A stretch of 64,000 nucleotides of DNA from Bryobacteraceae bacterium (lineage in GTDB: Bacteria > Acidobacteriota > Terriglobia > Bryobacterales > Bryobacteraceae). The position numbers and the translations under genes are program-made. The notes below the pieces were generated by a model that had not been told where the DNA came from, searched no databases, and was given only the letters and a program-made list of their open reading frames with translations. The DNA lies in the NCBI GenBank assembly GCA_025927575.1, contig JAICLJ010000002.1:1-64000 (forward strand), written 5' to 3'. Shown one piece after another: positions 4,962-22,508 of the stretch (within the stretch, counting starts at the first letter, position 1; the number at the start of each line of letters is the position of its first letter).

Positions 4962-5344
4962 TCGCTTCGATACTCCTTAGTCCTGAAATGTAAAGCTCGC
5001 GAACTCAGGCGGGGGAAGGATTGAAAAGCCGAGAGGACGCGGTCGGGTTGAAGCCTGCTGGCTACGAGGGGCAGCGACTATAACCAAAACGCATAGGGGC
5101 ATTGTATCAGATTTATACGACAAATCCAGCTTGAAATTCCGAAGCGTGCCGCAGGGAAGGTTGGCTCCAGAGAGAGGACGGAAGTACCGGTATTGCGCGT
5201 TCGATGCAGGGCAGTCACGGGTTTTACATTTTTTTATCTAGTTTATTTTCATACGTATAGCGGGATGTGCCGCCGGCCTCGACGATCCGTGACTGCTAGC
5301 TTTGTGTGCGTAACAGCATAGGTTGCGCAGAGATTACGAAGCAC

Positions 5345-5722
5345 ATGGGACGAATGATCAGGTTGAAAGATGACGAGCAAGGCCCGGCCGAGGGGGGGCG
5401 ACCGGGCGGGAGGGGTGGCAGCCTCACATCTGTCGGAAGAGGCGAGCGCCGATCGGGTCCGGAGTTAAGAAGAAGCGAGAAGCCGAGGACGGGTCCCGAC
5501 GGCGAGTATTACGAACCAGCGGCTCGAATGCAGGCGCCCAGCTTCGTGAAGAAATTCCGGCGGCGAATACAAGGTTTCCTTTGGAACCGGGCAGAGAAGC
5601 AAGGCGTGGCCGATTACTTGAAGATGATGGACGCGGAGCGTGAGACGGCAAAACGGGCTGTGCAGAAGCGGCCGAAAGAAGTCCGTGTGCTGTGGGTTCA
5701 CGAAGAGGCGAAGGAACAGTGA
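5345..5722 (+). CDS. Small basic protein, first gene of phage-like cluster (possible terminase small subunit; unproven)
   Basis: ORF immediately upstream of TerL, stop TGA overlapping the GTG start of TerL (gTGA). Confidence 0.45.
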   Translation: MGRMIRLKDDEQGPAEGGRPGGRGGSLTSVGRGERRSGPELRRSEKPRTGPDGEYYEPAARMQAPSFVKKFRRRIQGFLWNRAEKQGVADYLKMMDAERETAKRAVQKRPKEVRVLWVHEEAKEQ

Positions 5723-7002
5723 CGACCTGGCGCGTTAGCTTCGACCCGCTGCCTTCGCAACGGGCGTTCGTCAACTGCGCAGCGCGGTTCAAAGGTTTCT
5801 CCGGGCCCGTGGGCGCAGGCAAAAGCATGGCGCTGTGTTTTGCCGCGTTCCGGCTGGCAACGAAAAATCCGGGCTGCCAGGGTCTGCTGGGCGCCCCGAC
5901 CTATCGAATGATGAGGGACGTGACGCAGGTGGCGTTTTTGCGCTTGCTGGATGAAAGCGGTGTTCCTTACGAGTTTCACAAGTCGGAGAACACTATTCGG
6001 ATTGAGGAGATCGATTCCGAAATTCTGCTTCGCTCACTAGATGAACCGGAGCGCTTGCGCGGGACGAACCTGGCTTGGTTCGGAATCGATGAGCTGACAT
6101 TTACGACGGAAGAGGCGTGGACGCGTCTGGAGGCGAGGCTTCGCGAACCCAGGGCGCGGCGGCTATGCGGGTTTGGCGTTTGGACCCCGAATGGACATGA
6201 CTGGGTGTACCGGCGGTTCATCAAATCGACGATTCCAGGATATGCGTGCGTTCGGGCAAAGCCGCAGGAGAACAAGTTCATACTCGAGGCCAATCCGGAT
6301 TTCTATCAGCGGCTTGAGCATAGCTATGATCCCCGGTTTTACCGGCAGGAAGTGCTCGGTGAATATCTGAACATTCTGCAGGGGCGGGTGTATGAGTGCT
6401 TCGACCCGGAGCGAAATCTGGCGCCCGCCACTTACGATCCGAGGCAGCCTCTGCATTGGAGCCTCGATTTTAACGTGACGCCACTCTGCTCCGTGCTGGC
6501 GCAGAGGCGCGGCGAGGCGCTGTACGTTGTGGACGAGATTTCACTGCAGAACGCGACAGTGAGCGACGCGGTGGATGGGTTGAGGAATAAGGTGGCCAAT
6601 CTCGGTGCGCCGATCGTGATCACCGGGGATGCGAGCGGAAGGCAGCGATCGGTAAGCAGCGCGGGCGATGCCTACAGCGAGCTGAGGCACTACCTGAACA
6701 AAGCAGGGTTTCGCAACTACACAATGCGGATTGCTTCGCATAACCCGTCGGTGTTGCAGCGAGTGAAGCTTGTCAACGCTCAAATGCTAGATTCGCGCGG
6801 CGGCACGAATTTGTTTGTGGATCCACGCTGCAAAGAGTTGGTGAAAGACCTTGAAGAGGTCTTGTTCAAGCCGAATGAAGGCGTGATCGACAAGGCGAGA
6901 GACCCAGCGAGAACGCATATCTCGGATGCGCTGGGCTATCTGGTCTGGGAGTTATTCGGCGAGAAGCAGACCGTGGGCGAGATGAATAAGAGGTTGTTCT
7001 AG
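5719..7002 (+). CDS. Phage terminase large subunit
   Basis: Walker A GPVGAGKS, Walker B-like LAWFGIDELTF, RNaseH-like nuclease WSLDFNVTPL...ITGDASG. Confidence 0.85.
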   Translation: MTTWRVSFDPLPSQRAFVNCAARFKGFSGPVGAGKSMALCFAAFRLATKNPGCQGLLGAPTYRMMRDVTQVAFLRLLDESGVPYEFHKSENTIRIEEIDSEILLRSLDEPERLRGTNLAWFGIDELTFTTEEAWTRLEARLREPRARRLCGFGVWTPNGHDWVYRRFIKSTIPGYACVRAKPQENKFILEANPDFYQRLEHSYDPRFYRQEVLGEYLNILQGRVYECFDPERNLAPATYDPRQPLHWSLDFNVTPLCSVLAQRRGEALYVVDEISLQNATVSDAVDGLRNKVANLGAPIVITGDASGRQRSVSSAGDAYSELRHYLNKAGFRNYTMRIASHNPSVLQRVKLVNAQMLDSRGGTNLFVDPRCKELVKDLEEVLFKPNEGVIDKARDPARTHISDALGYLVWELFGEKQTVGEMNKRLF

Positions 7003-7037
7003 GGTGTTCAGAGTTGCGGCAGACCAGTAGAGGGGAA

Positions 7038-8435
7038 ATGAATATGTTTGATATCGACAGGGAGCATCCCGAATACCGACAGCGAAAACAGATGTGGCGC
7101 TGGTATCGCGACTTGTATGCCGGCGGCCAGCAGATGAAGGACAACGCGGCCGAGTACCTGACGCGCCGGCAAAGGGAGCCGCTGGATGTTTATGGCGAAC
7201 GGCTGCTGCGCGTCTTCTATGAGAACCATATTGGATCGATTGTCGACTGGTATGCGGCTACTCTGTTTCGCCGTGAACCGCTGATTGGTTTTGAGGGCGA
7301 AAGCGAATTCGGCCGCGCCTTCTTTTCGAACTTCTGCGACAACTGCGATTTGAAGGGAACCGGACTTACGGATTTCTTCCGGCAGTGCTTTATCGACACG
7401 TTAGTCGGCGGAACAAGCCATATCTTAGTAGACTTTCCGCGATTAGACCGGCAGCCAGTGAACCGCGCGGAGGAGGAAGCCGCGGGCCTATCGCGGGCTT
7501 ACCTTTCGCGGCACCGGGCCGAAGAATTGATCAACTGGAGCAACGACGAACAAGGGCAATACGAGTGGGTGGTGCTGCGCAGGACGCAAAAGCGGCAACC
7601 CAGCGTCGAGAGCGCCGAAATTGTAGAAGAAACCTATTGGTACTACTTCGACAAGCAGACGTTTCGTGTTTACCGGCGGGAGCGGCGCAACGAGCAAGGC
7701 CAGGCCGAACTGGTGGCTGAAGGTCCGCACGGTCTGGCGAAACTAGAGCGAGTGCCGCTATTTACGATGCGGACAAGCGAAGGGCTCTGGTTGATGAACA
7801 AATCGGCGCTGCTTCAACTGGAGCACTTCAACAAATCGAATGCGCTCGGGTGGGCCATCACGATGGGGTTGTTCGCGATGCCGGTGATTTATTCGGACCG
7901 GGCGTGGAACCAGATAGTTGGGGAATCGTATTACATCCAGCTTGGCGCGCAGGACCGCTTCGGGTGGACGGAACCGGAGGGAAAAGTCTACCAGATTGCA
8001 GTCGATAACTTGTCGCGGCTGCGGGATGAGATCTATCGCGTGTGCTACCTGTCGCAAGCGTCGGGTGAGCTATCGGGCGGCCAGTCGCAATCGGCACTTA
8101 GCAAAATGCGGGACTTCGCGATTACGAACGAAGTCCTGCGTTCGTATGGCGATGTAGTGAAGGACACGGTGCGGAAGGTGCTGGAGGCGATCAGCATTGC
8201 TCGTGAAGATGGCGTCACAGTATCAGTTTCGGGACTTGACGAATTCGATGTCGGCGATTTCGGAACTGAGCTGAAAGATGCTCAGACACTGCTGCAGCTC
8301 GGGATTGATTCGCCGACGCTCAAGCAACAGATCCATCAGAAGCTGGCTTTGAAGTATCTGTGCGACGTCCGCCAGGACGTGAAGGAACAGATTGCGAGCG
8401 AGATCGAGGAAGCGGTGGGAAAGCAAATTGAATAG
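7038..8435 (+). CDS. Phage portal protein
   Basis: Size (465 aa), position after TerL, portal-like sequence MNMFDIDREHPEYRQRKQMWRWYRDLYAGGQQMKDNAAEYL... Confidence 0.75.
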   Translation: MNMFDIDREHPEYRQRKQMWRWYRDLYAGGQQMKDNAAEYLTRRQREPLDVYGERLLRVFYENHIGSIVDWYAATLFRREPLIGFEGESEFGRAFFSNFCDNCDLKGTGLTDFFRQCFIDTLVGGTSHILVDFPRLDRQPVNRAEEEAAGLSRAYLSRHRAEELINWSNDEQGQYEWVVLRRTQKRQPSVESAEIVEETYWYYFDKQTFRVYRRERRNEQGQAELVAEGPHGLAKLERVPLFTMRTSEGLWLMNKSALLQLEHFNKSNALGWAITMGLFAMPVIYSDRAWNQIVGESYYIQLGAQDRFGWTEPEGKVYQIAVDNLSRLRDEIYRVCYLSQASGELSGGQSQSALSKMRDFAITNEVLRSYGDVVKDTVRKVLEAISIAREDGVTVSVSGLDEFDVGDFGTELKDAQTLLQLGIDSPTLKQQIHQKLALKYLCDVRQDVKEQIASEIEEAVGKQIE

Positions 8436-8442
8436 GCAGCGG

Positions 8443-8458
8443 GCGAGGCATGCCTCGC
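8443..8458. repeat. 16-bp perfect palindrome gcgaggcatgcctcgc, REP-like
   Basis: Perfect palindrome in the portal/scaffold gap. Confidence 0.6.
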
Positions 8459-8499
8459 TCCTACAGAGACCCTGCGCTGTGGAAAGAACTGAGGAGTGT

Positions 8500-9084
8500 A
8501 TGTCCGAACAGATTGAAAACGAAGAGACAGTATCAACGCCCGGCATTCGCGACGTTGTGCGAGACGTGATTGAGGAATTTGTCAGAGCCGAGCAGAGCAA
8601 AGCCGAGCCGGCTTACAAGACGGAGCTGCTCGAAGAACGCAGAAAGCGAGAGGCTTTGGAGACGCGCCTGAATCATCTTGTAGAAGAAAACAAACGAGCC
8701 CAGGCCGCCGTCGAAGAAGCGGACCGGCATTCGCAGATCCGGGCGGAGCTGCAGCGGATGGGCGTGTCCAAACTCGACCTGGCGTTTCGAGCGGTGAAGG
8801 ACGACATCATCCGGGGCGAAGACGGGCGATTGATCGCTCGCGACGCCCAGGATCAGAAGCCTGTGAACGAATATCTGCGAAAGTTCGTCGAAGAAAATCC
8901 GGAACTGCTGCCGGCCCGTATCGCGGGCGGAAGCGGGGTGCATTCCACAACGCGCAACGCCGTTGCGAACACCCAAACCGTCGTGGATATCGACAAGATC
9001 AAGCCGGGCATGGGTAAGGACGAGCTGGAGCGGATTCGCCAGGAAGTGGCGCGGTTCGCGGCGCAAAGTTTGCGGGGGGCCTAG
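8500..9084 (+). CDS. Putative capsid scaffolding protein
   Basis: Charged coiled-coil protein (ELLEERRKREALETRLNHLVEENKRAQAAVEEADRHS) directly upstream of coat gene. Confidence 0.55.
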   Translation: MSEQIENEETVSTPGIRDVVRDVIEEFVRAEQSKAEPAYKTELLEERRKREALETRLNHLVEENKRAQAAVEEADRHSQIRAELQRMGVSKLDLAFRAVKDDIIRGEDGRLIARDAQDQKPVNEYLRKFVEENPELLPARIAGGSGVHSTTRNAVANTQTVVDIDKIKPGMGKDELERIRQEVARFAAQSLRGA

Positions 9085-9109
9085 AAGCACGTCGGCAACC
9101 TCACGAGAA

Positions 9110-9243
9110 CGCCCGAAGGGGCGTATGAAGGGCTGAGCCGTAGTCGTTAGGACGAGCGGCAACAGCTTTTTGGGTCCCGGAATAAAGGGACCTGCAGAGC
9201 CGCGCAGAAACGCGGCGCAGTACACGGGCAGCTTCGGCTGCCC
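9110..9243 (+). ncRNA. Highly structured leader / candidate cis-RNA upstream of coat gene
   Basis: Hairpins CGCCC-GAAG-GGGCG (9110-9123); GCTG.GCCG..TCGT-tagg-ACGA.CGGC..CAGC (9132-9166); GGTCCC-N8-GGGACC (9173-9192); GCCGCG-cagaaa-CGCGGC (9199-9216); GGGCAGC-TTCG-GCTGCCC (9226-9243). Confidence 0.55.
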
Positions 9244-9253
9244 ATTTTTATTT
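9226..9253 (+). terminator. UUCG-loop terminator/attenuator-like hairpin just before coat-gene SD
   Basis: GGGCAGCTTCGGCTGCCC followed by ATTTTTATTT then AGGAG SD. Confidence 0.6.
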
Positions 9254-9262
9254 AGGAGAGAT

Positions 9263-10174
9263 ATGTCAACCATTACATCTGCCAATCTGGCAAATGCGAT
9301 CGTCAAGCTAGTGGCCGCGGACGCATTGCCGGCACTGGTAAGCAATCTGGTCATGGGCAACCTGGTAAACCGGGACTACGAGCCGGTGCTTGCCAACGCC
9401 GGTGACACGGTCAACGTACCGATTCCACCGACCCTGGTGGCCAACAACATTGCCGAAGGCGGTACGGTTACGCCGCAGACCCCGAACCTGGGGAATGCGC
9501 AGATCGTTCTGAATACGCATGCCGAGGCGACCTTCCAGATTCCGGACGTGACGAAGTGCCTGGCTGTTCCCGACCTGATGAAGGTCTACATGCAGCCGGC
9601 CGTTGTTGCGATTGCGGAAAAGATTGAGGGCGATCTGCTGAATCTGTACAGCAGTTTCTCGGCGAACACTCCGGTGGGCACCGCCGGCACGGCAGTCACG
9701 GAAGCGACGATTGACGCGGCGGAGACGGCGCTGTTCCAGGCGAAAGTTCCGGCCAGCGAGCCGAAGTATCTGGTGGTCGATTCGTCCACCTATTCGCAGA
9801 TTCGGCAGATTCCGCGATTCAGCGAGTATTATTCGGCGGGCGACGCGGGTTTGCGCGCTCTCGTCGAGGGCAATGTCGGCAAGATGAAGGATTTCTTTAT
9901 CTTCCGTTCGCAGCTTGTTGCGAAGACCGGCATGAGCACGGTGAACGTTCACAACCTCGCTTTCAGCCGCGATGCAATCGGGCTGGTTCTTCGCCGGCTT
10001 CCTCAGCCACTGCCTGGTACCGGCGCGATCGCGGAGTACGCCGAGATGGGGAATTTCGGAATTCGCGTGGTGATGAGCTACCAGCCGAATACCTTGTCGC
10101 AACAGTTCACGGTGGATGTGCTGTACGGCTGCGGCGTATTGCGGAACAACTTTGGCGTTCAGGTGAACAGCTAA
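9263..10174 (+). CDS. Major capsid protein, P22 gp5-like
   Basis: MSTITSANLANAIVKLVAADALPALVSNLVMGNLVNRDYEPVLANAGDTVNVPIPPT... typical P22-coat family start. Confidence 0.8.
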   Translation: MSTITSANLANAIVKLVAADALPALVSNLVMGNLVNRDYEPVLANAGDTVNVPIPPTLVANNIAEGGTVTPQTPNLGNAQIVLNTHAEATFQIPDVTKCLAVPDLMKVYMQPAVVAIAEKIEGDLLNLYSSFSANTPVGTAGTAVTEATIDAAETALFQAKVPASEPKYLVVDSSTYSQIRQIPRFSEYYSAGDAGLRALVEGNVGKMKDFFIFRSQLVAKTGMSTVNVHNLAFSRDAIGLVLRRLPQPLPGTGAIAEYAEMGNFGIRVVMSYQPNTLSQQFTVDVLYGCGVLRNNFGVQVNS

Positions 10175-10237
10175 TTACAAAGTGGGGGGCGAGTCGATCT
10201 CGCCCCCTGAAAGATTGTTGCGCAAAAGCAAGGAAGA

Positions 10238-10273
10238 GGCGGCCTGCGAGGCCGCCGCAGGCCGAGGGCCTGC
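10238..10273. repeat. Two adjacent perfect GC hairpins, REP-like element
   Basis: ggcggcct-gcg-aggccgcc (10238-10256) and gcaggcc-gag-ggcctgc (10257-10273). Confidence 0.6.
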
Positions 10274-10327
10274 CCCACCCGTTTCGTGCGAGCGAGTACA
10301 CGGTTCCGAGGATTAGAAGAGGAAGCT

Positions 10328-10654
10328 ATGGACTTACGACAGTTTTACAAGAAGATACGCGATGTGGAAGCGACGATTCCAGACCAGTTCCCGTTTGTGG
10401 TCAGCCTGGAAACTTCGGATGGCGGAAAGCCTGGCGTGATTACCGAGGCGCCTCGCTATCAGGCTGCCCGAATGATCGTTGAGGGAAGCGTGAGGCTTGC
10501 ATCCGAAGAGGAGAAGCAGGTTTTTCTTGAACAATGCGGGGCCGCGCAAAAGGCCGCTGAGGAAGTGGAAGCGGCCAGGCGTCTGCACTGGAGTTTGTTT
10601 GCGGGCCATGAAGCGCGGCCGCCGGTGACGCCCCAGCGGCCTTCTAAGAAATAG
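10328..10654 (+). CDS. Small phage cluster protein, unknown
   Basis: MDLRQFYKKIRDVEATIPDQFPFVVSLETSDGGKPG..., in collinear cluster. Confidence 0.6.
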   Translation: MDLRQFYKKIRDVEATIPDQFPFVVSLETSDGGKPGVITEAPRYQAARMIVEGSVRLASEEEKQVFLEQCGAAQKAAEEVEAARRLHWSLFAGHEARPPVTPQRPSKK

Positions 10655-10664
10655 GAATAATGCC

Positions 10665-11492
10665 ATGGCTCTCTTCAACGATGCAGGATTGATCGGGATT
10701 GCAGACCTCGAGGCTTACGAAGTTAGCCTGAGCAAGGTCGCTTCGACGCACGGCATCAATATAGATACAAAAACGGCGATGACGCTGGACCAGGTTGGCG
10801 ACCGGCTTCTGCAAAGACTGGTGCGAGCGGGAGCGGCGGATTCGCAGTGCGTCGATTCCGTCTTAAGTGGAGCCGCCTCGATCTACTCCCTGCCGCCGCA
10901 GCAAGGCTGGCTATTCACACTCAGCAATGTAGTTGTTACGCCGCCGCTACGCCGCTGGATCTGCTTTGAGGTGCTCTCACAGATTTTCGCGGAAGCATAC
11001 AACACTCAGCTAAACGATCGGTTTAAAGGCAAGTGGACCGAATACATGGCGCGGTCGGCCGATGCGGAGTATAGCGTTTCGCAGTTGGGAATAGGCGTCG
11101 TTCATAATCCGCTCGCGCGGCCCGCGGAAGCGCAGGTGACGGTAGGCGCGGGATCGATTTCCGCAGGAATCGTCGTGGTGCAGACCGCGTGGGTGGATGG
11201 TCGCGGAAATGAAGGGGCGCTGAGTCCGCTCGTGCCGGTTACCTTGTCCGATTCATCTTCGATCACGGTCGAGATAGCCAACGGCGTGAATCAATCGCCG
11301 GCGTCGGCTAGTGGTTGGAACGTTTACATCGGATGGGACGGCGCGGGCCCATCCCGCCAGAATCTGGCGCCTCTCGCGAAGGGCGAATCCTGGCCGACGC
11401 CAGGGACAGGCTTCGTGTCCGGCCCTGCGCCTCTTAATGGGCAAGAACCGGAATTCTACATTGTGGATCCACACAAGCTGAGGAGGGGATAG
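10665..11492 (+). CDS. Putative head-tail connector protein with Ig/FN3-like segment
   Basis: Position between coat and tail genes; C-terminal VQTAWVDGRGNEGALSPLVPV...SGWNVYIGWDG. Confidence 0.5.
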   Translation: MALFNDAGLIGIADLEAYEVSLSKVASTHGINIDTKTAMTLDQVGDRLLQRLVRAGAADSQCVDSVLSGAASIYSLPPQQGWLFTLSNVVVTPPLRRWICFEVLSQIFAEAYNTQLNDRFKGKWTEYMARSADAEYSVSQLGIGVVHNPLARPAEAQVTVGAGSISAGIVVVQTAWVDGRGNEGALSPLVPVTLSDSSSITVEIANGVNQSPASASGWNVYIGWDGAGPSRQNLAPLAKGESWPTPGTGFVSGPAPLNGQEPEFYIVDPHKLRRG

Positions 11493-11495
11493 CCG

Positions 11496-11993
11496 ATGGC
11501 GCCGATCACATTGCAGGCGGCACAAAAGGTAGCCGCTCTGTTCACGAATAACTCCGCTATCGAAAGTGAAGTGAACTCAATTGCGACGGGGAGTTCCTAC
11601 ATAGTGCCGGTGATCCCGGCATCGCAGGTCTATCTCACTTCAACTTCGATAAATATGGCAGACGTGCAGCAACAACTGGCTTACCCGCGAATCAGCGTGT
11701 TCTGCAGCCGCTTGGTCAATCAGCACCGCGAGAAGTTCCGGTCGCTTTCCGGAACGTTGGCGATCACGGTGGAGATTGCGGCGACGGCGGATCTGATCGA
11801 TCTTGTCGAGTACTGGATGCACTACTACGTCGAAGCGGCGAGCAACATTCTTCGGAGGGGCGCCGGGGACATGGGAGACGGCGTTTTTTTTCCGGGCACA
11901 TATCAAGTTGACGTTCAGCTCGCTCAGATAGGGGGCAGCGGCTTCCTGCAATTGGCGCAGGTGACTTGCGAACTGGGCGTGAGCCGCAATTAG
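11496..11993 (+). CDS. Putative tail completion / head-tail joining protein
   Basis: 165 aa protein located directly upstream of putative tail-tube gene. Confidence 0.5.
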   Translation: MAPITLQAAQKVAALFTNNSAIESEVNSIATGSSYIVPVIPASQVYLTSTSINMADVQQQLAYPRISVFCSRLVNQHREKFRSLSGTLAITVEIAATADLIDLVEYWMHYYVEAASNILRRGAGDMGDGVFFPGTYQVDVQLAQIGGSGFLQLAQVTCELGVSRN

Positions 11994-12004
11994 GAGGTTG
12001 CAGA

Positions 12005-13174
12005 ATGGCAAACTATATCTCGTCAAACGCGAATCGGTTCTATGCGGCGATTGAGCCTTCGTACGGGCAAGCGGCTCTTGTGTCCGCGGCAAACCGGTTT
12101 CCCGCGGTAAGCATGATGATCCAGCAAGGATTGGAACAGAGCCGCCGGCACGATAAGACCGGTTCACGGACTTTTAGAGGAACTCCGAAGACATCTCGCC
12201 GCGTCACTGCCTTTGAAACACAAACGTATCTGACCTCATGGAATGGAACGGGATCGCCCGCTTACGGGCCGCTGTTCCAAGCAGCATTCGGAGGACAGCC
12301 GTTGCTGAACGGCGGGTTGACAATCCAGAGCATTCCACAGGCCGCGGCAATCCAAACAAACGCTCCGCATGGCTTAACTGTAGGGTCCGCAGTGTCGTTT
12401 AATAATGAGATCCGGTTTGTAGCGAGTGTGGTGGACACGCAAACAGTTCTTCTGAATGCGGGATTCAGCGCCACGCCTTCCCCCGGTTCCGGCTTAACTC
12501 CGGCGATTACCTACCGGTTATCGACCAATTTGCCGAGCTTGACCCTGTACGACTATTGGGACCCAATCACGGCGGTGCAGCGAGCGGTGGTGGGCGTTGC
12601 CGTGGATACCCTCGATATTTCGGTGAACGGCGATTTTCACGAGTTTACGTTCCGGGGGCCGGCTGCCGACGTTCTGGACTCGCAGACGTTCGCCGCAGGA
12701 ACGGCGGGACTCAGCCAGTTTCCAGCGGAGCCGCCCCTTGGCTCGTTCGATTACTCGCTGGTGCCAGGCCACCTGGGGCAAGCGTGGATTGGCGCGCCGG
12801 CGAATCAATTCTTTACTCTCATCACGGCGAGCGTTCGTCTCAACAACAATCTCGCGGCGCGGAATCGCGAATTCGGAACGGCGATTCCGCGAGGGATCTC
12901 GCCGGGGGCCCGCCATGTATTAGCTCATCTCAGCGTGTTAGCGCAGGATGACGCGCAGACAACGGGCCTCTTTCAGGCGGCTCGATCGCGAACAGCGCTT
13001 CCAGCCATGTTGCAGTTGGGACAACAACAGGGGCAGTTGATGGGCATTTACATGCCGAGTGTAACCCCGGAGCTTCCGCGCTACAACGATGGGCAGCCGG
13101 AGCTGCAGTGGGACTTTCAGAATTGCCAGGCACAGGGACAAGCCGATGATGAGATCTTTATCGCGTTTGCATAG
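12005..13174 (+). CDS. Putative major tail (tube) protein
   Basis: Position before tail chaperone; beta-rich 389 aa protein MANYISSNANRFYAAIEPSYGQAA... Confidence 0.55.
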   Translation: MANYISSNANRFYAAIEPSYGQAALVSAANRFPAVSMMIQQGLEQSRRHDKTGSRTFRGTPKTSRRVTAFETQTYLTSWNGTGSPAYGPLFQAAFGGQPLLNGGLTIQSIPQAAAIQTNAPHGLTVGSAVSFNNEIRFVASVVDTQTVLLNAGFSATPSPGSGLTPAITYRLSTNLPSLTLYDYWDPITAVQRAVVGVAVDTLDISVNGDFHEFTFRGPAADVLDSQTFAAGTAGLSQFPAEPPLGSFDYSLVPGHLGQAWIGAPANQFFTLITASVRLNNNLAARNREFGTAIPRGISPGARHVLAHLSVLAQDDAQTTGLFQAARSRTALPAMLQLGQQQGQLMGIYMPSVTPELPRYNDGQPELQWDFQNCQAQGQADDEIFIAFA

Positions 13175-13544
13175 GCCCGTTCGATTCGAGAGCTCGCGCT
13201 GGTTCGACAGCGAGACGGTCGCGGGAGTTCGCTTCGCTGTAAGAAAGCCGTCGCTTGGGCAGCGGCTCGAGCTTACTCGCCGTGTTCACGAACTAACGCT
13301 GCGGCATGAATTTCTGAAAGCCGGCAGCGAAACGGAAAAGCTGGAAGAGGCGCTCGGCGAACTGATGGTTCAGCAACTGTATATCGAGTGGGGCCTTAAG
13401 ACAATCGAGGGACTCGAAATCGATGGCGAACCGGCAACCCCTGCGGCGCTGATCGACAGCGGGCCCGAAGAGCTTGCAGTCGAAATCGCATCCTGTGTCG
13501 TTCGCGAGTGCGGATTGACTGAGGACGAACGAAAAAACTTTTAG
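13146..13544 (+). CDS. Tail assembly chaperone, short (G-like) product
   Basis: Small acidic protein between tail tube and tape measure ending ...LTEDERKNF*; slippery A_AAA_AAC at 13532-13538 in the correct frame. Confidence 0.65.
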   Translation: MMRSLSRLHRPVRFESSRWFDSETVAGVRFAVRKPSLGQRLELTRRVHELTLRHEFLKAGSETEKLEEALGELMVQQLYIEWGLKTIEGLEIDGEPATPAALIDSGPEELAVEIASCVVRECGLTEDERKNF

Positions 13545-13873
13545 TCGCTTTCCACTTCCAGCGTTCAGGCCGGGCCGCATGGAATTGCGACGATTGCAGG
13601 CGACGCGGCCTGGTCGAGTTACGAAACTGCGGATTTCAGCGCGAGGGAGCCATGGCCCGGAATACACCGGTCTGGGCGCGCGGCGGCGTGTCAACGACCC
13701 AGTGCCCTAAATCGCTAATTTCGGCCGAGAGCCTGGTGTTTCTGGAGGAGTTCAACATCTGGGGGCGATTCGGGTGCGGAGATGCACGGCGGATGAATGC
13801 CCGAGTGGCTGATGCCATCGCTCTGCTTGAAGACGAGTTGAAGCGGGAAGTTGAACGAAGCGCTGGTGAATAG
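13538..13873 (+). CDS. Tail assembly chaperone, T-like extension reached by -1 frameshift
   Basis: The -1 frame is open from 13538 through 13873 (LLVAFHFQRSGRAAWNCDDCRRRG...EVERSAGE*), which includes the annotated 13652 ORF. Confidence 0.6.
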   Translation, partial: LLVAFHFQRSGRAAWNCDDCRRRGLVELRNCGFQREGAMARNTPVWARGGVSTTQCPKSLISAESLVFLEEFNIWGRFGCGDARRMNARVADAIALLEDELKREVERSAGE

Positions 13874-13929
13874 GGAACAAGGCACGCCTTATCCGGGACA
13901 AGCACCAGGAAACTGGCGGGAGGACGGTC

Positions 13930-14475
13930 ATGAAGAAGAAAACGAGTTCAAGTTCATTTAAGACGTCATTAACAAAACTAACTGGTTCCGGGTTCACCGG
14001 GGGTAAGTTGAGCGGCTTGTCGAAGTCGGCCAGGTTGTCGCAGGGCATCAATTTCGGAAAGGCGCCTAACAGCGCGACGCTGGCTCCCAATTCGAGTTCG
14101 AGCGGAGGATGGCAAAAATATGCTTCGCAACTCGCTTCCGGCGGTGCTGCCAGCATTCTAACGGGCAGCTATGGAACCGGCACTTTCGGAGGATTCGGCC
14201 TCGCCCCGATCGTTTCCGGAATTCTCGGACTCTTGGGGAGCAAGCATAAAAACCCGCCCGTACTTCAGCCTTTCAGTCTGCCGGGCCCGAGTCATCAGAC
14301 CGTTCACCTGGGAGGCGGCAACTCGAGCGCAAGCGGGCCAAGTAGTGTCGTGCATGTGCACGTAAAGGCGATGGATTCGCAGTCGTTCATGGACCGCTCG
14401 AACGAGATTGCTAACGCGGTTAAGAGCGCGATGTTGAATTCGCATTCACTCAACGACGTGGTTTCGGAGGTCTAG
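13930..14475 (+). CDS. Short tape-measure-like protein
   Basis: Position after chaperone; Ser/Gly-rich N-term, hydrophobic LAPIVSGILGLLG, C-term VVHVHVKAMDSQSFMDRSNEIANAVKSAML similar in style to tape measure C-termini of GTA-like clusters. Confidence 0.5.
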   Translation: MKKKTSSSSFKTSLTKLTGSGFTGGKLSGLSKSARLSQGINFGKAPNSATLAPNSSSSGGWQKYASQLASGGAASILTGSYGTGTFGGFGLAPIVSGILGLLGSKHKNPPVLQPFSLPGPSHQTVHLGGGNSSASGPSSVVHVHVKAMDSQSFMDRSNEIANAVKSAMLNSHSLNDVVSEV

Positions 14476-14835
14476 ATGGCAACCTTTCCCGTTTTGTCAA
14501 CCGGAGCTGTCGGACAGTATCCGATGGCGAGAGGGGTCAGCTACAACGTGGAGGTCATCCGCTTCATGGACGGCTCCGATCAACGATACCTGACACGCGG
14601 TAAGCCGTTACGGCGATGGCTGATCAAACTGGATCAATTGACCGAGGCGGAACTTGGGCGACTGGAGCAGTTTTTCGACAGCGCGCAGGGGAACTTTGAG
14701 TCATTTGATTTCCTTGATCCTTTCAGCGGGATGCCTATTCCGAACTGCCGGATTGCGAATCCTTACCTCCTGACGGAGTATGTGGCAGCAGGAAGTGGAA
14801 GCGCCGCGCTGATGGTGGAGGAGTCAAGTGTCTAA
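14476..14835 (+). CDS. Distal tail-like protein 1 (DUF2460-like)
   Basis: PVLSTGAVGQYPMARGVSYNVEVIRFMDGSDQRYL...FDFLDPFSG. Confidence 0.5.
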   Translation: MATFPVLSTGAVGQYPMARGVSYNVEVIRFMDGSDQRYLTRGKPLRRWLIKLDQLTEAELGRLEQFFDSAQGNFESFDFLDPFSGMPIPNCRIANPYLLTEYVAAGSGSAALMVEESSV

Positions 14836-15571
14836 TATGTTTTTCCCACAGCTTTTGACTGGAGCGCTCGCGCAGTATCCCATCAACCGGACCAAGTTCA
14901 TGCATACGGTTGTGAACAGCATGGAGGACGGATCGAGAATTTCGTATTTCGATCCGGACGGCTCGACCTTAATTTGGAATCTAACTTACCTGGGATTGAC
15001 TCAAGGAGAGGTGGACGCGATACAGTCTCTTTTCGACGGGTGTTGCGGACCGCTTCGCGCGTTTACCTTCATCGATCCGACTGCCAATCTCCTCTCTCCG
15101 ATGTGGCAGCACTCTCCCCTGATTACTTTGCAGGGATCAGCGTACACGAACCGGTCGAACTCTGTCCTGGAAATAAGCCAAACGTTTGCGATACCCGCCG
15201 GATATCAATATTGCCTTTCAGTTGCAAGCGGTGAGACAAACGGCACGGGTGAATCGGTTGCATTGATCCGGCGAGGGCCGAATACCCAGCAGCGCAATCA
15301 GTTGCCTGTCGCACAGGGTCAGATGGTCAGCAGTGGAGCACTCGCCGACAGCGGCGTGGGCTTCACGGTAGCTATCGAGCTGCAGCCAGGGCAAGTGTTT
15401 GATTTGGGCCAGGCCCAACTTGAAGCACAGGTGGCACCCTCGGACTTCCGGCCGGCTTCGAACCTGGGCGGGATCTATCAAAAAGCGCACTGGGCCGTGA
15501 ACGAACTTCTGTTTCAGGCCGACGCACTCGATTCCTTTAGTGTGAATTTCACGATCGAGACATACGCATAG
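14828..15571 (+). CDS. Distal tail-like protein 2, paralogue of upstream gene with C-terminal extension
   Basis: FPQLLTGALAQYPINRTKFMHTVVNSMEDGSRISYFD...FTFIDPTANLL aligns by eye with 14476-14835 product. Confidence 0.5.
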   Translation: MSNMFFPQLLTGALAQYPINRTKFMHTVVNSMEDGSRISYFDPDGSTLIWNLTYLGLTQGEVDAIQSLFDGCCGPLRAFTFIDPTANLLSPMWQHSPLITLQGSAYTNRSNSVLEISQTFAIPAGYQYCLSVASGETNGTGESVALIRRGPNTQQRNQLPVAQGQMVSSGALADSGVGFTVAIELQPGQVFDLGQAQLEAQVAPSDFRPASNLGGIYQKAHWAVNELLFQADALDSFSVNFTIETYA

Positions 15572-15579
15572 GATTTCAA

Positions 15580-18500
15580 ATGTCGACTATCAACGTAGTG
15601 AAAGAAATGGCGGAGGCCGACAGCCCCCTGCTGCTCTTCGAATGCCTGCTGCCGAATGGAGCTTACCAGCGCGTGAGCACGCAGACGATTGTGTTCGCCG
15701 GCAACATGTACTCGGCTCGGGTGCTGAAGCACAATCTATTTACGCTTCAGCTCTCCGCAGACGATGCGATGGACGGCATGGCTCAGCTTTCGCTTACGCT
15801 GGCGAATGCCGACTCGGCACTCTCGCAGATTCAGTCGACCGCGGGTTGGAAGGGGACACAACTCACGGTGTATTTCGTGTTCGCGGATCTGGTAACGGGA
15901 ACCACGACGACCGAAAGCACAATTCTATTTCGCGGCCTTGCCGGCGATCCCGACGAAATCGGCGAAGACACGATGAAGATCAGCTTCGCGAATAAACTGA
16001 GTCTGCTTCGAGTGGGTCTTCCGGAGATTCGGATTCAGCGCTTGTGTCCCTGGAATTTTCCGACGACGGCCGGGCAGCGCACCGCGGCAGGTACAGGCGA
16101 TAAATATTCGCGTTATTTCCGATGCGGCTATTCCGCGGACGTTTCCGGCGGCTTCGGGAACTTGAGCGACGGCCAGCCATTCACCACGTGTGACCACACG
16201 CGCGCAAGCTGCGAACAGCGAGGGATGTTCAGCAAGGATAGCAGCGGCAAAGCGACGGCGCGATTTGGCGGATTCGAATTCGTTCCGTCGAGCACGCTGG
16301 TGCGCGGGTACGGGCAAAAAACGGCGCAGCCGGCCGCCGTCCTCGACAATTCGGCGAAGTACAACGACTATGTGCCGATGGTCTATGGCACGGGCTGGGT
16401 AGCGGCGCCGGTTATTCTTGCGCGAAACGACGGCAACCTGACGCACATGGAACTGCTGCTCGGATCTGGATCAATCGATAGTGTGTTGAAGGTAATCGTC
16501 AACGATATTGAGATCCCGCTGGCGGTCTCAGGTGCGGACATGACCGGAACCGGCTGGTACAACATCGTGACGCCGGGGACCGCGCAGGGATCGTTCAATT
16601 TAGACTTCGTCGATTCCGACAATCAACCGGTGGGCGATCCATACGGAAGCGTTGCTGTGATTTCGGTGGTTGTGCCGAACAGGATCAGCGGCGGCGGAAG
16701 CCTGCCTCACGTGGAAATCCTGATGCAGGGTCTGCATCTGGATCGCTACAACCTAGATGCGAGTTTTCGGGATACTACGTTTACAAACAATCCGGCCTGG
16801 ATCATTCTGGATATTCTGAGGCGCGCGGGTTGGTCTCGGAGCGACATCAACATAGCGAGCTTCGCGAGCGCGGCCGCGTATTGCGACGAGCTGATCGCGA
16901 CAACCGACATCAATGGCAATGCAATCCATATTGCCCGATATCGATGCAACCTGATTCTAACGAAACGCAAGAGCGCGGCGGACGTAATCCGGAGCGTCCG
17001 TGTCGCGTGCGGTTTAATGCTGCGATATGGCGCAAGCGGGCTACTGGAACTGCTACCGGAAACTTCGCTCGCACTACAGCATCCGACACTGCCCGATGGA
17101 AGCAATGTTGTGGAAAGTGTGAATGGGGGCTGGCCCGCTTATGAATTCAGCGACGGCTCAGGGATGTCCTCGGGGATCGCACGGAATCCGGACGGAAGCT
17201 CAACGGTACGGCTGGTTTCGAAAGGGATCTCGGAAAGTTCGAACCGGCTGACGGTGGAATTCCAGGATGAAGCGAACGAATATCAGCAGGACACGCTTTC
17301 GGTACTAAGCGACGACGATCAGGCGCTCATCGGATATGAAGTCGGCAGCACGTCGACTGCGTTGGGTCTACCAAATTTCAACCAGGCGCTGAGGATCTTG
17401 AGCCGGCAAATCGGAAAGGCGACAAAAGGAAATCGGTTCATCGAATTTGGAACCAGCTTTCGAGCACTGAAGGTGAGGCCGGGAGATATCATTGCGCTGA
17501 CTTATTTGAAGGAAGGGCTAACGCGTACGCAGTTTCGCGTCGTAAAACTGGCGCCATCGGTCAATTACAGGAACGTTGCGATTCTGGCGCAGGTTCATGA
17601 CGACAGTTGGTATAACGATGACCCGGGAAACGGCAGCGGAGGAGGGCGCCAGCCGGGAGCAGGCGCGGCGCTGCCACGGCCACTGCTTGGTCCCGTATTC
17701 GGCGCCGACGGAAGCACGCAATTCAGCATTAGCGAGAGCACTACGTCCCGAACGGACGGAGGCGCGGCCACAATATTGACGGCTGGCTTTGTGAAACCTA
17801 CTCAATCGCTGGCCGGCGCGCCCATCGTTCCTTTACTCAGCCTCGCTCCACAAGTTTTGACCGCGGGAGGAAGTCTGAAGGGCGGCGTGAACTACTATTA
17901 CGCGCTCACGGCCAACGATGGCGCCGGAAACGAAGGCTCGTTGTCGTTCACGATTCGAGCGGCGATTCCGCAAGGGAACGACACAAACTCAGTCGGGTTA
18001 ACGGGTTTGAGTCTGCCGTCGACGGCGGCATCTTTCAATGTCTATCGTGGGACCAGTCCACAGCTTCTCTATCGAATTGCCTCTAACCAGCCGATTGCAA
18101 CGGCGTTCACGGATAGCGGCTTTTCGGCCCAGCCGTTGGGACCGCCCGATGCCAGTTTCGACCACGCGAATTTCTACTACCGGCCGGAGATAGCGGGACC
18201 CATTGTTGCGAATGTGTTTTCCTCAACGACAATCGGTTGTTCCGATATGAACGCCACCATTTCGGCTTACTCCGGCATGTTGGTGAGAATCATTGCGGGT
18301 ACCGGCGCCGGACAAGAGCGTAGGATCAGTTTCAACGACGAATCCACCCTCACGGTTTTCCCAGCATGGTCAATTGCGCCCGATACGACGAGCAATTTTG
18401 TTGTTGTGGAATCCACCTGGCAATTTGGCGCCGCAACAAGAACGAGCCCCGTGCAGTTTGAGGTTCCGAACCAGAAGGGTACGGTGGTGCAGATTTCCGG

Positions 18501-19494
18501 CCGGGGAGCGAATGTCAACGACATCGAAGGCTCGCCGGAGCTTTGCCCGGTAATCCGCTGGGTTGTAGGCGGCGCAGCGGGAAGTGAACTGGATCTCGAT
18601 ACGCCGAGCCCGCCAACATACGCATTGGCGGCGACAGGGCAGGGCCGCGTCACGTTGTCGCAGGTCGGATTTACGAGCTTGACGAATACGCGATCCGTCA
18701 CGGCCGGGACTCTGCAACTCGTTTACTTTGACGAACTGCAAACGCCAACTCCTTATAAACTCGAAAGCGCAATCGATGCCATCACGCCGATTGTCGCGAT
18801 AACATCCACGCTCTCCGGAAACCCCGCAGTGTTGCAGGTTGGAGCTGAACTGATGGCGGTGCAGTCGTTTAATGCCACGACCAATACCTGTACCGTAACT
18901 CGCGGCGCGCTGGGCTCCATGGCTTCGACTCATAATGCCAACGACCCGGTATGGCTGCTTTCGAAGATCACGTTTGTCCTTTCATTCGCGCGGGACTTTT
19001 TCGAGAATCCGGCATCTCAAAATTTCGCGCATACCGTCACGCTGCCGGATGTTCGTGTAGCAGCATCGCAGTTTTACGTCACAAACTCGCGGGGCGACAG
19101 TACGACCAGCGTTCAATGCTACACGTCACTTCCCGATGGAGGGTTGCGAACTTGCTCCGGCGGCCAGTTTGCGATTCAGGTAGGCGGTTACCTTGCCGTC
19201 CAACAAAATGCCGCACCGCCGCTGTTTGTGGAGGCAACACACTCAGTACGCGATTTGCGGGCCAGTGTCAGCGAGGCGCCGGCCGGGACTGCGGTTCTTC
19301 TCAACTTATTGCAAAGCGGAACAGTCTACAGCCAGCTTGCAATTCCAGCGGGCCAGACCGCTTCTAACGTGGTCAATGGCGTGGATCTGCCGCCCTTGAG
19401 AGAAGGCGATGCCGTGAGCCTGGACATCGTGCAGGTGGGGCAAGCTCAACAAGATTCGCCCGGACGCGATTTGACTTTGACCATCCGGCTTTAA
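15580..19494 (+). CDS. Tail hub/tip fusion protein (N-terminal DUF2163/gpL-like, then tip-like and FN3-like segments)
   Basis: N-terminal hub region with Cys set RLCPWNF...YFRCGYS...CDHTRASCEQRGMF...ARFGGFEFVP; later ILRRAGWSRSDINIASFASAAAYCDELIATT (tip-like). Confidence 0.65.
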   Translation: MSTINVVKEMAEADSPLLLFECLLPNGAYQRVSTQTIVFAGNMYSARVLKHNLFTLQLSADDAMDGMAQLSLTLANADSALSQIQSTAGWKGTQLTVYFVFADLVTGTTTTESTILFRGLAGDPDEIGEDTMKISFANKLSLLRVGLPEIRIQRLCPWNFPTTAGQRTAAGTGDKYSRYFRCGYSADVSGGFGNLSDGQPFTTCDHTRASCEQRGMFSKDSSGKATARFGGFEFVPSSTLVRGYGQKTAQPAAVLDNSAKYNDYVPMVYGTGWVAAPVILARNDGNLTHMELLLGSGSIDSVLKVIVNDIEIPLAVSGADMTGTGWYNIVTPGTAQGSFNLDFVDSDNQPVGDPYGSVAVISVVVPNRISGGGSLPHVEILMQGLHLDRYNLDASFRDTTFTNNPAWIILDILRRAGWSRSDINIASFASAAAYCDELIATTDINGNAIHIARYRCNLILTKRKSAADVIRSVRVACGLMLRYGASGLLELLPETSLALQHPTLPDGSNVVESVNGGWPAYEFSDGSGMSSGIARNPDGSSTVRLVSKGISESSNRLTVEFQDEANEYQQDTLSVLSDDDQALIGYEVGSTSTALGLPNFNQALRILSRQIGKATKGNRFIEFGTSFRALKVRPGDIIALTYLKEGLTRTQFRVVKLAPSVNYRNVAILAQVHDDSWYNDDPGNGSGGGRQPGAGAALPRPLLGPVFGADGSTQFSISESTTSRTDGGAATILTAGFVKPTQSLAGAPIVPLLSLAPQVLTAGGSLKGGVNYYYALTANDGAGNEGSLSFTIRAAIPQGNDTNSVGLTGLSLPSTAASFNVYRGTSPQLLYRIASNQPIATAFTDSGFSAQPLGPPDASFDHANFYYRPEIAGPIVANVFSSTTIGCSDMNATISAYSGMLVRIIAGTGAGQERRISFNDESTLTVFPAWSIAPDTTSNFVVVESTWQFGAATRTSPVQFEVPNQKGTVVQISGRGANVNDIEGSPELCPVIRWVVGGAAGSELDLDTPSPPTYALAATGQGRVTLSQVGFTSLTNTRSVTAGTLQLVYFDELQTPTPYKLESAIDAITPIVAITSTLSGNPAVLQVGAELMAVQSFNATTNTCTVTRGALGSMASTHNANDPVWLLSKITFVLSFARDFFENPASQNFAHTVTLPDVRVAASQFYVTNSRGDSTTSVQCYTSLPDGGLRTCSGGQFAIQVGGYLAVQQNAAPPLFVEATHSVRDLRASVSEAPAGTAVLLNLLQSGTVYSQLAIPAGQTASNVVNGVDLPPLREGDAVSLDIVQVGQAQQDSPGRDLTLTIRL

Positions 19495-19497
19495 CCC

Positions 19498-22473
19498 ATG
19501 GCAGAACAACTTTTTAAACTGAGTCCACACCGGGATCTACAGTGCTACTTCTATCAACCTTCGGCGATTGCGGCACTGAGCGACGCGACCGAGAGCGGCT
19601 TTACTCTTTCCGGAACCTGGCGGCAGCAGTTCGACTGGGCGGTCGTCGAGTGGAACCGTGACAATGTGTTTGAGCATCCGGCATTGCGCTACTTGCCGGA
19701 CGGCAATTTGAGTGGGCTCACTTTAAGCTATATCGAGCAGCGCACGAATTGCTTGCCGGTCGAATCGGACGTTTATCCCTCCGTGGAGTGGCCGTACTTG
19801 CGGCTGTGGGCGGAGGGGCCGGATGGCGATGAGCACGTTTATTATGTCCGCTTGAAGGATCACGCGGCGCCCGTGGATGGCAGTGAATACCGGAACGCCT
19901 CGGCCACGTTGACGCTGACAGGATCACCGACGGAGGGAAAGGCCGCCGGCGTCAGCTTTGAGGGACTCTTCACGACGCAGAGCCAACCGATGGCCGAGCA
20001 GCACTTTTACTACTTAGTGCAGAGTGGCGATTCTCTAGCCGACGTTGCTCGCCAACTTGCAGCAAACATCAATGGCTTTCCGGCCTTCGGTATTCAGGCG
20101 GCGAGTTCCGGGCCGTCCATCACATTTGAGTACATCGGTACCGACGTGCTTGCCGGGAAAACGGGCTCCAACGCGAACCGGCTTGGTGTCTACGGATACG
20201 TCGATGCAGGCTCACAGCTTGGCTGGACACAGCTGTCGGCTGCCTTCGGCGGTGGCGACTTTCCTAACGAATATCGCGTTTCGTTAGATTTTGGGAATCT
20301 GCGAGGCGCGATGGACGATCCAGCACAATTCGGGCAACTGAACTTTCAGCCCGTCTCGATTCCGACGCAGAAGGTCCGGAAAGTGCGCTGGACCTGGGCT
20401 GCGGGCCTGCAACCGGGATCATTCGAGAGAAGCGAGTTCAGCGTCGTCGTTTCGAGTTGGACCGTGACGGGCAGCGCGCGGCAATACTTTCTTGCCGGGC
20501 CCGGCAGCCGCCGCATTGAGGACGACGATCTGACGGTTGCTTACAGCTCTACCGGCGCCGTCAGCGATTGGGCGGCGCAGGGTCCTGGTAATTATTCCGG
20601 CGGCCGTATTCATTTAACGAAGACGGAAGGGGCTACGTGCATCGTCAAATACAACGAACCGATCGGGCATCAACTTTACCTGGGAACGAGGGCGCTCGCC
20701 GGTGGCGCGGTTGCCGAAGTCTCAGTAGATGGCGGTCCACCACGGATTTTCAACCTGGAGTTGAAGGGAGAAGATGTACTGCTTCGCTTGTTTATCGGCT
20801 CGGTAGCAGCGGGATCGCACACGGTGACAATTGTGCACTTCGGAGCACCGGCGGGTTCGCCGCCGAATGCGATCGCCGATCTATATTTTGACTTCCTTGA
20901 GCTTGCGTATCCCTCCGCCGATCTCCCCGATTTTGCTCCTCAGCCTCAACTGGCGATGGCTACCGATTGGGATACTCTGCATTCCCAGTCCTTACCAGCA
21001 GAACGAACTGCCTGGCTGCTGTGGAAGCTTGGCTTCCACGGAAGGGTAAACCACTATGTTGGAGCCATCTGGTTCTACGAACTATTTCGCCCGGGCCACC
21101 AATATGCACAACTCACTATGACCGTCTCTACGGCGGCAGGGGAGCCCACCGGGTATACGGAACTGGACATCGGAAGCGACCTCTCGAAACTTCAACAAGG
21201 AATCGATACTTCGAAAGTTACGATTCAACATCAAAACTTAGCGGCTGATACGGACGCCACGATCGCGCAGGCTCTCGCGCTGCTGATCAATCGGAACTCA
21301 GGCGCGATCTGGGCCAGCGCCAGCGGGAACGTGGTCACCATTACGGCGCGAACCATGGGAACGGCGGGGAATGGCCTTGCGTTTCTGCCGTACTCCGCCC
21401 CGGGAAACAACGTTGTCCTTACCCTCTCCTCAAATGCGCTCATAGGAGGCGTCGACGGTGTGGATGCCGCTTTCGATCCCGCCGATCCAAATGCCGTTAC
21501 GCTCGACGCCTTCACTCAGTTTTGGCGGACCGATCTGAATGCTACGCTGCGGCTAAACCGCGCCTGCCGGGACTGGTCAAAAGCTTTTTTTCGCGCCCTG
21601 GTGAGTTACGGACTCGATGGCGTGGCATCGTTCAGTACCGAGCTGGCTCACGTGGATCCCACTTCCAGCGCGGGAATGGCGCAGCGGTACTCAGATGGCA
21701 GCCCAGTCGTTCTGAATACTCCGGCGGTGCAAACCAACTTTTCGCCCGTCAGCCTCTCCTTCTGGCAGGAAGTTTACCTTGAAATGGCCGTGCTGCAGGC
21801 CAGCGCGGGGCTTGTCCCTTATCTGCAATCGGGAGAGGTGCAATGGTGGTATTTCGCAAAGCACACATGGGAGAAAAACAATGGGGCGTGGGTGGATCTG
21901 GGAGACGCTCAAGTCGGAATGCCGCTTTATGACGACTACACAAAGCAGCAGTTTGAAGCTGCCTACGGGAGGGCTATGCAGATCATCCAGGCCGACGCCG
22001 ACCCCGCAAATTACCCAAGCGAAACGGCTTTTCTGCCTACGTTGATCGGTGGATACACGGTGGCGATTCGGAATGCGTTGAAGCAGCACTATGCGAGTGC
22101 CCGCTTCGAAGTTTTGTATCCGACCGATGTCAACAACACTCCACTCAACCGGATTATCAATTACCCGGGGAACGACTGGGCGCCGCAGAACCTGGATTGC
22201 CTGAAAACAGAGGCCCTCTCCTATACTGCCGGCTGCGATCTGGATGCCGGCGCAACCTCGATTCGTTTCAGCGCGGTGAAAGGATTCTCAACGAATCAGC
22301 GAAGTCACCTTATCGGCATAAGCGATCGGAAAACGTCCTGGATGAAGGAAGCGAATCTGGCGCGAGCGCAGGGCTTGGAATCGGTTGTGCTATTTGCGCT
22401 TGATCAGTTCTGTCTCATCGGCTATCCCCCGCCTCCATTTGTCGATCAGCGATGGAGCCGCCGGGCTGCATAA
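19498..22473 (+). CDS. Large tail/host-interaction protein, possibly with glycoside-hydrolase-like TIM-barrel region
   Basis: Last gene of the cluster; 991 aa; WAVVEWNRDNVFEHP..., C-term ...ARAQGLESVVLFALDQFCLIGYP. Confidence 0.5.
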   Translation: MAEQLFKLSPHRDLQCYFYQPSAIAALSDATESGFTLSGTWRQQFDWAVVEWNRDNVFEHPALRYLPDGNLSGLTLSYIEQRTNCLPVESDVYPSVEWPYLRLWAEGPDGDEHVYYVRLKDHAAPVDGSEYRNASATLTLTGSPTEGKAAGVSFEGLFTTQSQPMAEQHFYYLVQSGDSLADVARQLAANINGFPAFGIQAASSGPSITFEYIGTDVLAGKTGSNANRLGVYGYVDAGSQLGWTQLSAAFGGGDFPNEYRVSLDFGNLRGAMDDPAQFGQLNFQPVSIPTQKVRKVRWTWAAGLQPGSFERSEFSVVVSSWTVTGSARQYFLAGPGSRRIEDDDLTVAYSSTGAVSDWAAQGPGNYSGGRIHLTKTEGATCIVKYNEPIGHQLYLGTRALAGGAVAEVSVDGGPPRIFNLELKGEDVLLRLFIGSVAAGSHTVTIVHFGAPAGSPPNAIADLYFDFLELAYPSADLPDFAPQPQLAMATDWDTLHSQSLPAERTAWLLWKLGFHGRVNHYVGAIWFYELFRPGHQYAQLTMTVSTAAGEPTGYTELDIGSDLSKLQQGIDTSKVTIQHQNLAADTDATIAQALALLINRNSGAIWASASGNVVTITARTMGTAGNGLAFLPYSAPGNNVVLTLSSNALIGGVDGVDAAFDPADPNAVTLDAFTQFWRTDLNATLRLNRACRDWSKAFFRALVSYGLDGVASFSTELAHVDPTSSAGMAQRYSDGSPVVLNTPAVQTNFSPVSLSFWQEVYLEMAVLQASAGLVPYLQSGEVQWWYFAKHTWEKNNGAWVDLGDAQVGMPLYDDYTKQQFEAAYGRAMQIIQADADPANYPSETAFLPTLIGGYTVAIRNALKQHYASARFEVLYPTDVNNTPLNRIINYPGNDWAPQNLDCLKTEALSYTAGCDLDAGATSIRFSAVKGFSTNQRSHLIGISDRKTSWMKEANLARAQGLESVVLFALDQFCLIGYPPPPFVDQRWSRRAA

Positions 22474-22508
22474 AAAAATCCCTGGGCCGGTGAGGCCCAG
22501 GGATTTTT
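22472..22508. terminator. Bidirectional rho-independent terminator ending phage-like cluster
   Basis: aaaaaaatccctgggcc-ggtga-ggcccagggattttt, overlapping the stop codon of the 19498-22473 CDS. Confidence 0.9.

Follow-up and report, generated by a model that had tools for sequence, protein, structure and literature searches.

The locus at positions 5345-22508 raises a question of ownership. Do its virus-derived genes belong to a virus that resides in the chromosome, or to a particle that the bacterium itself uses? The window, meaning the whole stretch of DNA that was analyzed, is 64,000 nt long. An earlier note had taken its host for an acidobacterium, and the host is indeed a member of the Acidobacteriota, family Bryobacteraceae. 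The note had also described a collinear + strand cluster of about 17 kb with packaging, head and tail functions only, a description borne out by HMM matches. TerL, the portal, the P22-type coat, tail genes, a distal tail protein, a tail-tip protein and a terminal tail-sheath-like protein were matched, and together with the reading of open reading frames (ORFs) in the window all cluster genes were placed on the + strand and in line. The analysis confirmed that about 16 virus-derived genes form a complete packaging, head and tail cluster, in the following order.

5345..5722, + strand: probable small terminase (TerS), 125 aa, from its position upstream of TerL and a low-confidence model
5719..7002, + strand: large terminase (TerL), phrog_2 1.7e-36; GTG start overlaps the TerS stop
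7014..8435, + strand: portal protein, phrog_145 1.3e-52; true start probably 7038-7044
8500..9084, + strand: scaffolding protein, from a weak PF06810 match (E 0.02) and its position before the coat gene
9263..10174, + strand: P22-type major coat protein, 303 aa, PF11651 7.3e-18, phrog_283 9.1e-41
10331..10654, + strand: small head-tail connector candidate (g6), position and length kept in ~30 loci, function by position
10665..11492, + strand: connector candidate (g7), weak match to phrog_8040 head closure (0.0035), kept in ~30 loci, function by position
11496..11993, + strand: connector or tail completion candidate (g8), position and length kept, function by position
12008..13174, + strand: tail tube protein of the P74-26 / T5 pb6 type, phrog_290 1.7e-14
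13146..13544, + strand: tail assembly chaperone gpG, kept in ~30 loci
13532..13538, + strand: A AAA AAC slippery heptamer for a -1 frameshift (gpGT), in register near the gpG stop
13538..13873, + strand: gpT part of gpGT, frame -1; the partner ORF is always in the -1 frame where detected
13930..14475, + strand: very short tape measure protein, 181 aa, weak match to tape-measure phrog_3779 (0.0016)
14476..14835, + strand: distal tail protein, DUF2460, PF09343 2.1e-8
14828..15571, + strand: second distal-tail-like protein, 99.6% and E 2e-23 against the DUF2460 gene in a profile comparison
15580..19494, + strand: large tail-tip / central fibre protein, Phage-tail_3, J-like, 1304 aa, PF13550 1.6e-8, phrog_31 8.4e-22
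19498..22473, + strand: non-contractile tail sheath-like TIM-barrel protein, 991 aa, PF23845 1.7e-14, phrog_6040 3.9e-23
22478..22508, + strand: intrinsic terminator, TCCCTGGGCC-GGTGA-GGCCCAGGGATTTTTT, read directly; a pattern scan did not list 22478-22508

The gene order had been given before as starting at TerL. This order held, but 5345-5722 is an additional conserved gene at its head, the probable TerS. In nearly all loci with sequence there, a homologue precedes TerL and overlaps the TerL start. The TerS candidate has a variable N-terminus, basic in many genera, then a helical hairpin and a C-terminal PKEIxVxWVEP-like segment, which is the only part kept. A low-confidence AF2 model showed a disordered stretch and then two helices, and no helix-turn-helix was seen in the sequence or in this model. 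In TerL, Walker A, the Walker B residues D133-E134 and the nuclease residues D259, D313 and D412 were nearly invariant over ~30 genera (numbers counted from the ORF start at 5692). A P22-type coat with a scaffold had been proposed. For the coat, with its start corrected to 9263, this was upheld by PF11651 and phrog_283; the score of 65 bits, compared with a curated cut-off of 24, makes it a member of the P22-type coat protein family PF11651. The scaffold is assigned from the weak PF06810 match and position. Profile searches revealed neither a prohead protease gene among the cluster genes nor any peptidoglycan peptidase, NlpC-type ones included, in the cluster, in agreement with the earlier reading.

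The AF2 model of the tube protein (pLDDT 84) was matched by Foldseek to the P74-26 tail tube (E 1e-13) and the T5 tube (7e-13). The frameshift site claimed at 13532 proved to be conserved. In 26 of 30 loci, A AAA AAC lies in register and at most 12 nt from the gpG stop, and elsewhere in cluster genes it was found once in 145,122 codons. The tape measure had a length of 141-255 aa in other loci, with the exception of G044 (601 aa). The product of 14828-15571 had been called a hub, which had to be revised: profile comparison with the DUF2460 gene identified a second distal-tail-like protein instead, and judged by that comparison the two distal tail genes (14476..14835 and 14828..15571) are paralogues. 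The C-terminal part of the second one weakly resembles carbohydrate-binding modules, with weak matches (~0.01) to a xylanase chain and the RcGTA head-spike. No useful match came from PDB sequence searches, whether the query was the tail-tip protein, the sheath-like protein, or an alignment of the tube or of TerS. Tail genes and a sheath-like last gene could also belong to a tailocin or contractile injection device. However, the locus also has conserved TerL, portal, scaffold and coat genes, and its tube belongs to the siphophage T5/P74-26 type; we regard such a device as highly improbable. A homologue of the sheath-like gene (19498-22473) was not found in L097, L098, L099, L102 and L104. In the several genera lacking it, the tail-tip gene directly abuts host genes, for example a Wzt-like ATPase.

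Next to the cluster, the annotation showed the ordinary host genes that had been expected on both flanks, namely an OMP barrel, GH14/42, a ferritin-like protein, a TPR protein, FeoB, an oxidoreductase and MacB. The single strong terminator claimed for the cluster end was recovered as a perfect GC stem followed by T6 at 22478-22508. Base composition of the cluster was similar to the rest of the window. No tRNAs were found in the 64,000 nt, and a simple promoter scan revealed no excess of promoter-like sites. Upstream, two 10-bp arms (GCAGTCACGG at 5211-5220, CCGTGACTGC at 5287-5296) form a perfect inverted repeat, which was dropped as a candidate, being absent from isolate KBS 96. In other genera, too, the flanking genes look like ordinary host genes. 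Against expectation, no single fixed chromosomal site was found: a given neighbour is shared by some subset of genera only. A Wzt-like ATPase, for example, adjoins 8 of 23 loci, and ilv genes adjoin 5 of 57.

Uninterrupted ORFs had been taken to suggest selection, and the dN/dS check supported this. Values were 0.03-0.18 for every cluster gene at dS 0.3-1.0 (window compared with KBS 96), with 0.03 for the coat, 0.04 for the portal and 0.18 for the TerS candidate, and a neighbouring host gene was similar. Every cluster gene is under purifying selection. Gene lengths were constant in ~30 loci, and the ORFs were full length in ~30 genera. Over genera, the median identity was 58% (portal), 55% (scaffold), 49% (TerL) and 47% (tail-tip protein). 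The coat (9263-10174; mean column identity 85% in 13 rows) evolves far slower, at 77% over genera versus 30-58% for other structural genes. A decaying prophage remnant would account for the missing lysogeny and replication genes, but is refuted by the full-length ORFs in ~30 genera, the dN/dS of 0.03-0.18 and the kept frameshift site; we give it practically no weight.

The cluster is widespread in the family. The coat gene was detected in 198 of 237 Bryobacteraceae genomes and 70 of 76 genera, nearly always as a single copy. Among high-quality genomes it was present in 124 of 148 and absent in 24. Of the well-assembled genomes that lack it, 11 were checked for the portal; ten had none, and the one exception, G571, showed a portal at the end of a contig. 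Most genomes are metagenome assemblies, and absences and odd stops may therefore be artefacts. Outside the family, the coat gene occurred in two members of a second and one member of a third family of the same order, and in one genome of another family of the same class. There was no other close homologue in a sample of 396 genomes of the phylum. Named genomes with the coat gene belong to Bryobacteraceae/Bryobacterales, Acidobacteriota subdivision 3. The closest is isolate KBS 96 (coat 98% identical), which is also a cultured carrier, as are strains with complete genomes in genera g283 and g292.

Synteny across related genomes was among the proposed checks and was passed, with ~30 loci across genera collinear. 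Gene order was kept, almost always without inserted genes, in 34 loci from 33 other genomes. The exceptions were G032, with a divergent second copy, and the out-of-family G044, with additional DNA. The G032 copy (L103, G032:C144) duplicates the head and tube genes and has additional genes after g7 and before the tube gene; identity is 72% for its coat and 33% for its portal. In G044 (L116), 4.9 kb lie between the tube and distal tail genes and hold the 601-aa ORF. Perhaps this arrangement is an older, longer-tailed state.

Descent was examined with rpoB trees. The tree of concatenated cluster proteins shared 13 of 26 splits with the rpoB tree, compared with a mean of 0.31 and a maximum of 3 in label shuffles, and so the cluster also passed the proposed check of vertical phylogeny. 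Head and tail halves had 18 splits in common. Cluster and rpoB distances were correlated (Mantel r 0.72, p 0.001), also when the closest and the out-of-family taxa were left out, and two out-of-family genomes fell outside in both trees. Two strongly supported rpoB splits contradict the cluster tree. Therefore descent is mostly, not strictly, vertical, and from these few well-supported conflicts some exchange or tree error exists. Stable inheritance with the host under purifying selection is a trait of gene transfer agents (GTAs), and domestication of the cluster is well supported. Its retention by nearly all members of the family, intact and with unchanged gene order, points to the bacteria rather than a virus as users of the particle.

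We then weighed an ordinary temperate prophage family specific to Bryobacterales. All genes of the cluster are phage-like, and second, related copies exist in some genomes. In addition, a 2025 study described 'group (i)' proviruses that are specific to Bryobacterales, with KBS 96, Ca. Solibacter usitatus and Paludibaculum fermentans among the carriers (PMC11924767). Our locus probably corresponds to this group: compared by description, the two agree in the order, in shared isolates (KBS 96, Paludibaculum) and in a conserved gene order. The study differs in that it describes the loci as proviruses; domestication tests and a GTA proposal are absent from the accessible text (PMC11924767). An earlier study, from 2018, arrived at four prophages for KBS 96 (PMC5900883).

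The genes around the cluster speak against a prophage family. The cluster consists of structural genes only, and in line with the earlier note no integrase, replication gene or tRNA was found. The contig of the window contains no tyrosine integrase or resolvase. In ten genomes neither was found within ~40 kb of the cluster. The nearest integrase or resolvase was at ~40 kb in G005, at 70-80 kb in G576 and G044, and hundreds of kb or more away in G001, G577, G028 and G623; in G026 and G057 the whole cluster contig had none. Integrase, repressor, replication and lysis genes and att sites, the traits of a temperate prophage, were not seen with the cluster (repressor and att sites judged by annotation). 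The cluster has no replication, excision or integration genes of its own, as is typical of GTAs, and no lysis genes. The mostly vertical descent and a coat gene in 84% of Bryobacteraceae also argue against a prophage family.

Nearly 600 'viral' contigs in IMG/VR encode the cluster coat protein. The best 80 (L014-L093) were 75-95% identical. None was longer than 23 kb, and the contig nearest to the window carries the same host flank; both points further weaken the prophage reading. The contigs examined were short, collinear with the cluster and in some cases equipped with host flanks, so that they are probably chromosomal fragments. A degenerate DNA pattern scan of viral contigs found nothing. 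No close isolated phage was found: the best coat match was 28% and the best TerL match 32% identical, and the tail-tip protein had no match. Genome G630 allows a direct comparison, as it carries a normal cluster and a related prophage (L239, L240 at G630:C1:848900-888899, and L242). In this prophage TerL is 32% and the coat 67% identical, a very long ORF of 1145 aa takes the tape-measure position, and exonuclease and lysozyme genes are present; in these respects it differs from the cluster. To the left of this prophage are primase, helicase and integrase genes, with the integrase at 824 kb; they belong either to it or to a neighbouring prophage. A third coat copy in G630 (59%), accompanied by the primase and helicase genes, is located next to the prophage. 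In the coat-protein tree, the related prophage copies were not cleanly separated but occupied long branches within the tree. On balance, we consider an ordinary prophage family unlikely.

The cluster was next compared with known systems. The gene order had been said to parallel the GTA of Rhodobacter capsulatus (RcGTA, Rhodogtaviriformidae). This holds for architecture but not for homology, since coat, scaffold and tube types differ. Both are compact, vertically inherited structural clusters. The TerS candidate, assigned by position and a low-confidence model, may correspond to RcGTA gp1 in its conserved C-terminus and in showing no visible helix-turn-helix; gp1 begins with a coiled coil and appears to be without a DNA-binding domain (PMC6854486). 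A distal tail protein and a large tail-tip protein follow in the same order, and tail proteins are duplicated. The tape measure has 181 aa, compared with ~216 in RcGTA (PMC7296036). Two GTA-like traits, the probable TerS without visible helix-turn-helix and the very short tape measure, go beyond the earlier note. In contrast to RcGTA, the cluster has a P22-type coat with a scaffold and no prohead protease, a T5/P74-26-type tube and a frameshifted gpGT chaperone, and no NlpC-type peptidase was found. The coat gave no match to RcGTA capsid chains in a PDB search, and the homologous HK97-type major capsid protein and prohead protease that define Rhodogtaviriformidae are lacking. Because coat and head maturation differ, the cluster stands outside the RcGTA family.

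P22-type-coat phages (PF11651; Streptomyces phage Galactica and others) share the coat family, and the nearest phage coats are 24-28% identical over most of their length. These are complete phages, however, and the tail-tip protein of the window has no phage match. FpGTA of Faecalibacterium (PMC12946183), compared by description, is likewise a compact candidate GTA operon outside Alphaproteobacteria. It differs in being podovirus-like and backed by packaged-DNA reads.

Taken together, we consider it probable that the locus encodes a phage-derived particle that belongs to its Bryobacteraceae hosts and is passed on mostly by vertical descent, and that it is a GTA of independent origin. From the sequence we infer, as the best reading, a GTA function, that is random packaging and transfer of DNA. 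The cell would assemble a P22-type head on the scaffold, and TerS and TerL would pump DNA through the portal. A stubby tube-type tail, its length set by the ~200-residue tape measure, would then be added. Fragments of host DNA may be packaged without site preference and passed to relatives, as suggested by the missing replication, excision and integration genes and by a probable TerS without visible site-recognition domain. Particle formation, random packaging and DNA delivery would be the successive steps. A further GTA trait, a capsid too small for the whole cluster, is conjectural here, as P22-type coats often form heads holding ~40 kb, more than the 17-kb cluster. This point weighs against the GTA reading, as do the missing lysis and peptidoglycan peptidase genes, the conflicting tree splits, the 24 high-quality genomes without the coat gene and the low confidence of the TerS model. 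Release would have to use lysis genes located elsewhere; RcGTA lysis genes also lie outside its cluster (PMC6854486). DNA from RcGTA is imported by competence proteins (PMC7296036). ComEC, a competence protein found in relatives, scored over its cut-off in nine of ten genomes. It is common in bacteria, and its presence is permissive only for transfer.

A domesticated phage particle with a different function would account for all the conservation data just as well. It would package DNA randomly like PBSX and kill competitors, or serve some other role, without gene transfer. PBSX of Bacillus packages evenly dispersed chromosomal DNA in 13-kb pieces (PMC12946183). Compared by description, PBSX-like defective phages resemble our cluster in being host-borne phage particles with packaging genes; they package chromosomal DNA, as the cluster would. 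The terminal sheath-like gene varies between genera, which would also suit such a role. On the other hand, conservation of the tail-tip protein matches that of TerL (median 47% versus 49%), there is no obvious hypervariable receptor-binding gene, and a full DNA-packaging motor is kept under strong selection. Transfer-free use of this kind appears possible, but doubtful.

GTAs are well studied in a few lineages only, mostly Alphaproteobacteria. In the mostly open-access literature searched, we found no proposal of a GTA for Acidobacteriota. If the GTA reading is true, this would be the first in the phylum and among the most widely conserved known. The results further point to a chromosomal origin, in Bryobacteraceae, of hundreds of contigs listed as 'viral' in public databases. 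Since cultured strains carry the cluster, the GTA question is directly testable. For the family itself, we lean towards the view that Bryobacteraceae, which are widespread in soil, carry an ancient, independent GTA whose origin lies no later than that of the family and by which random host DNA passes from cell to cell. Such a near-core and vertically kept cluster in a major soil family would offer an independent case in which to test why bacteria retain these systems, and it may be a route of gene flow in soil.
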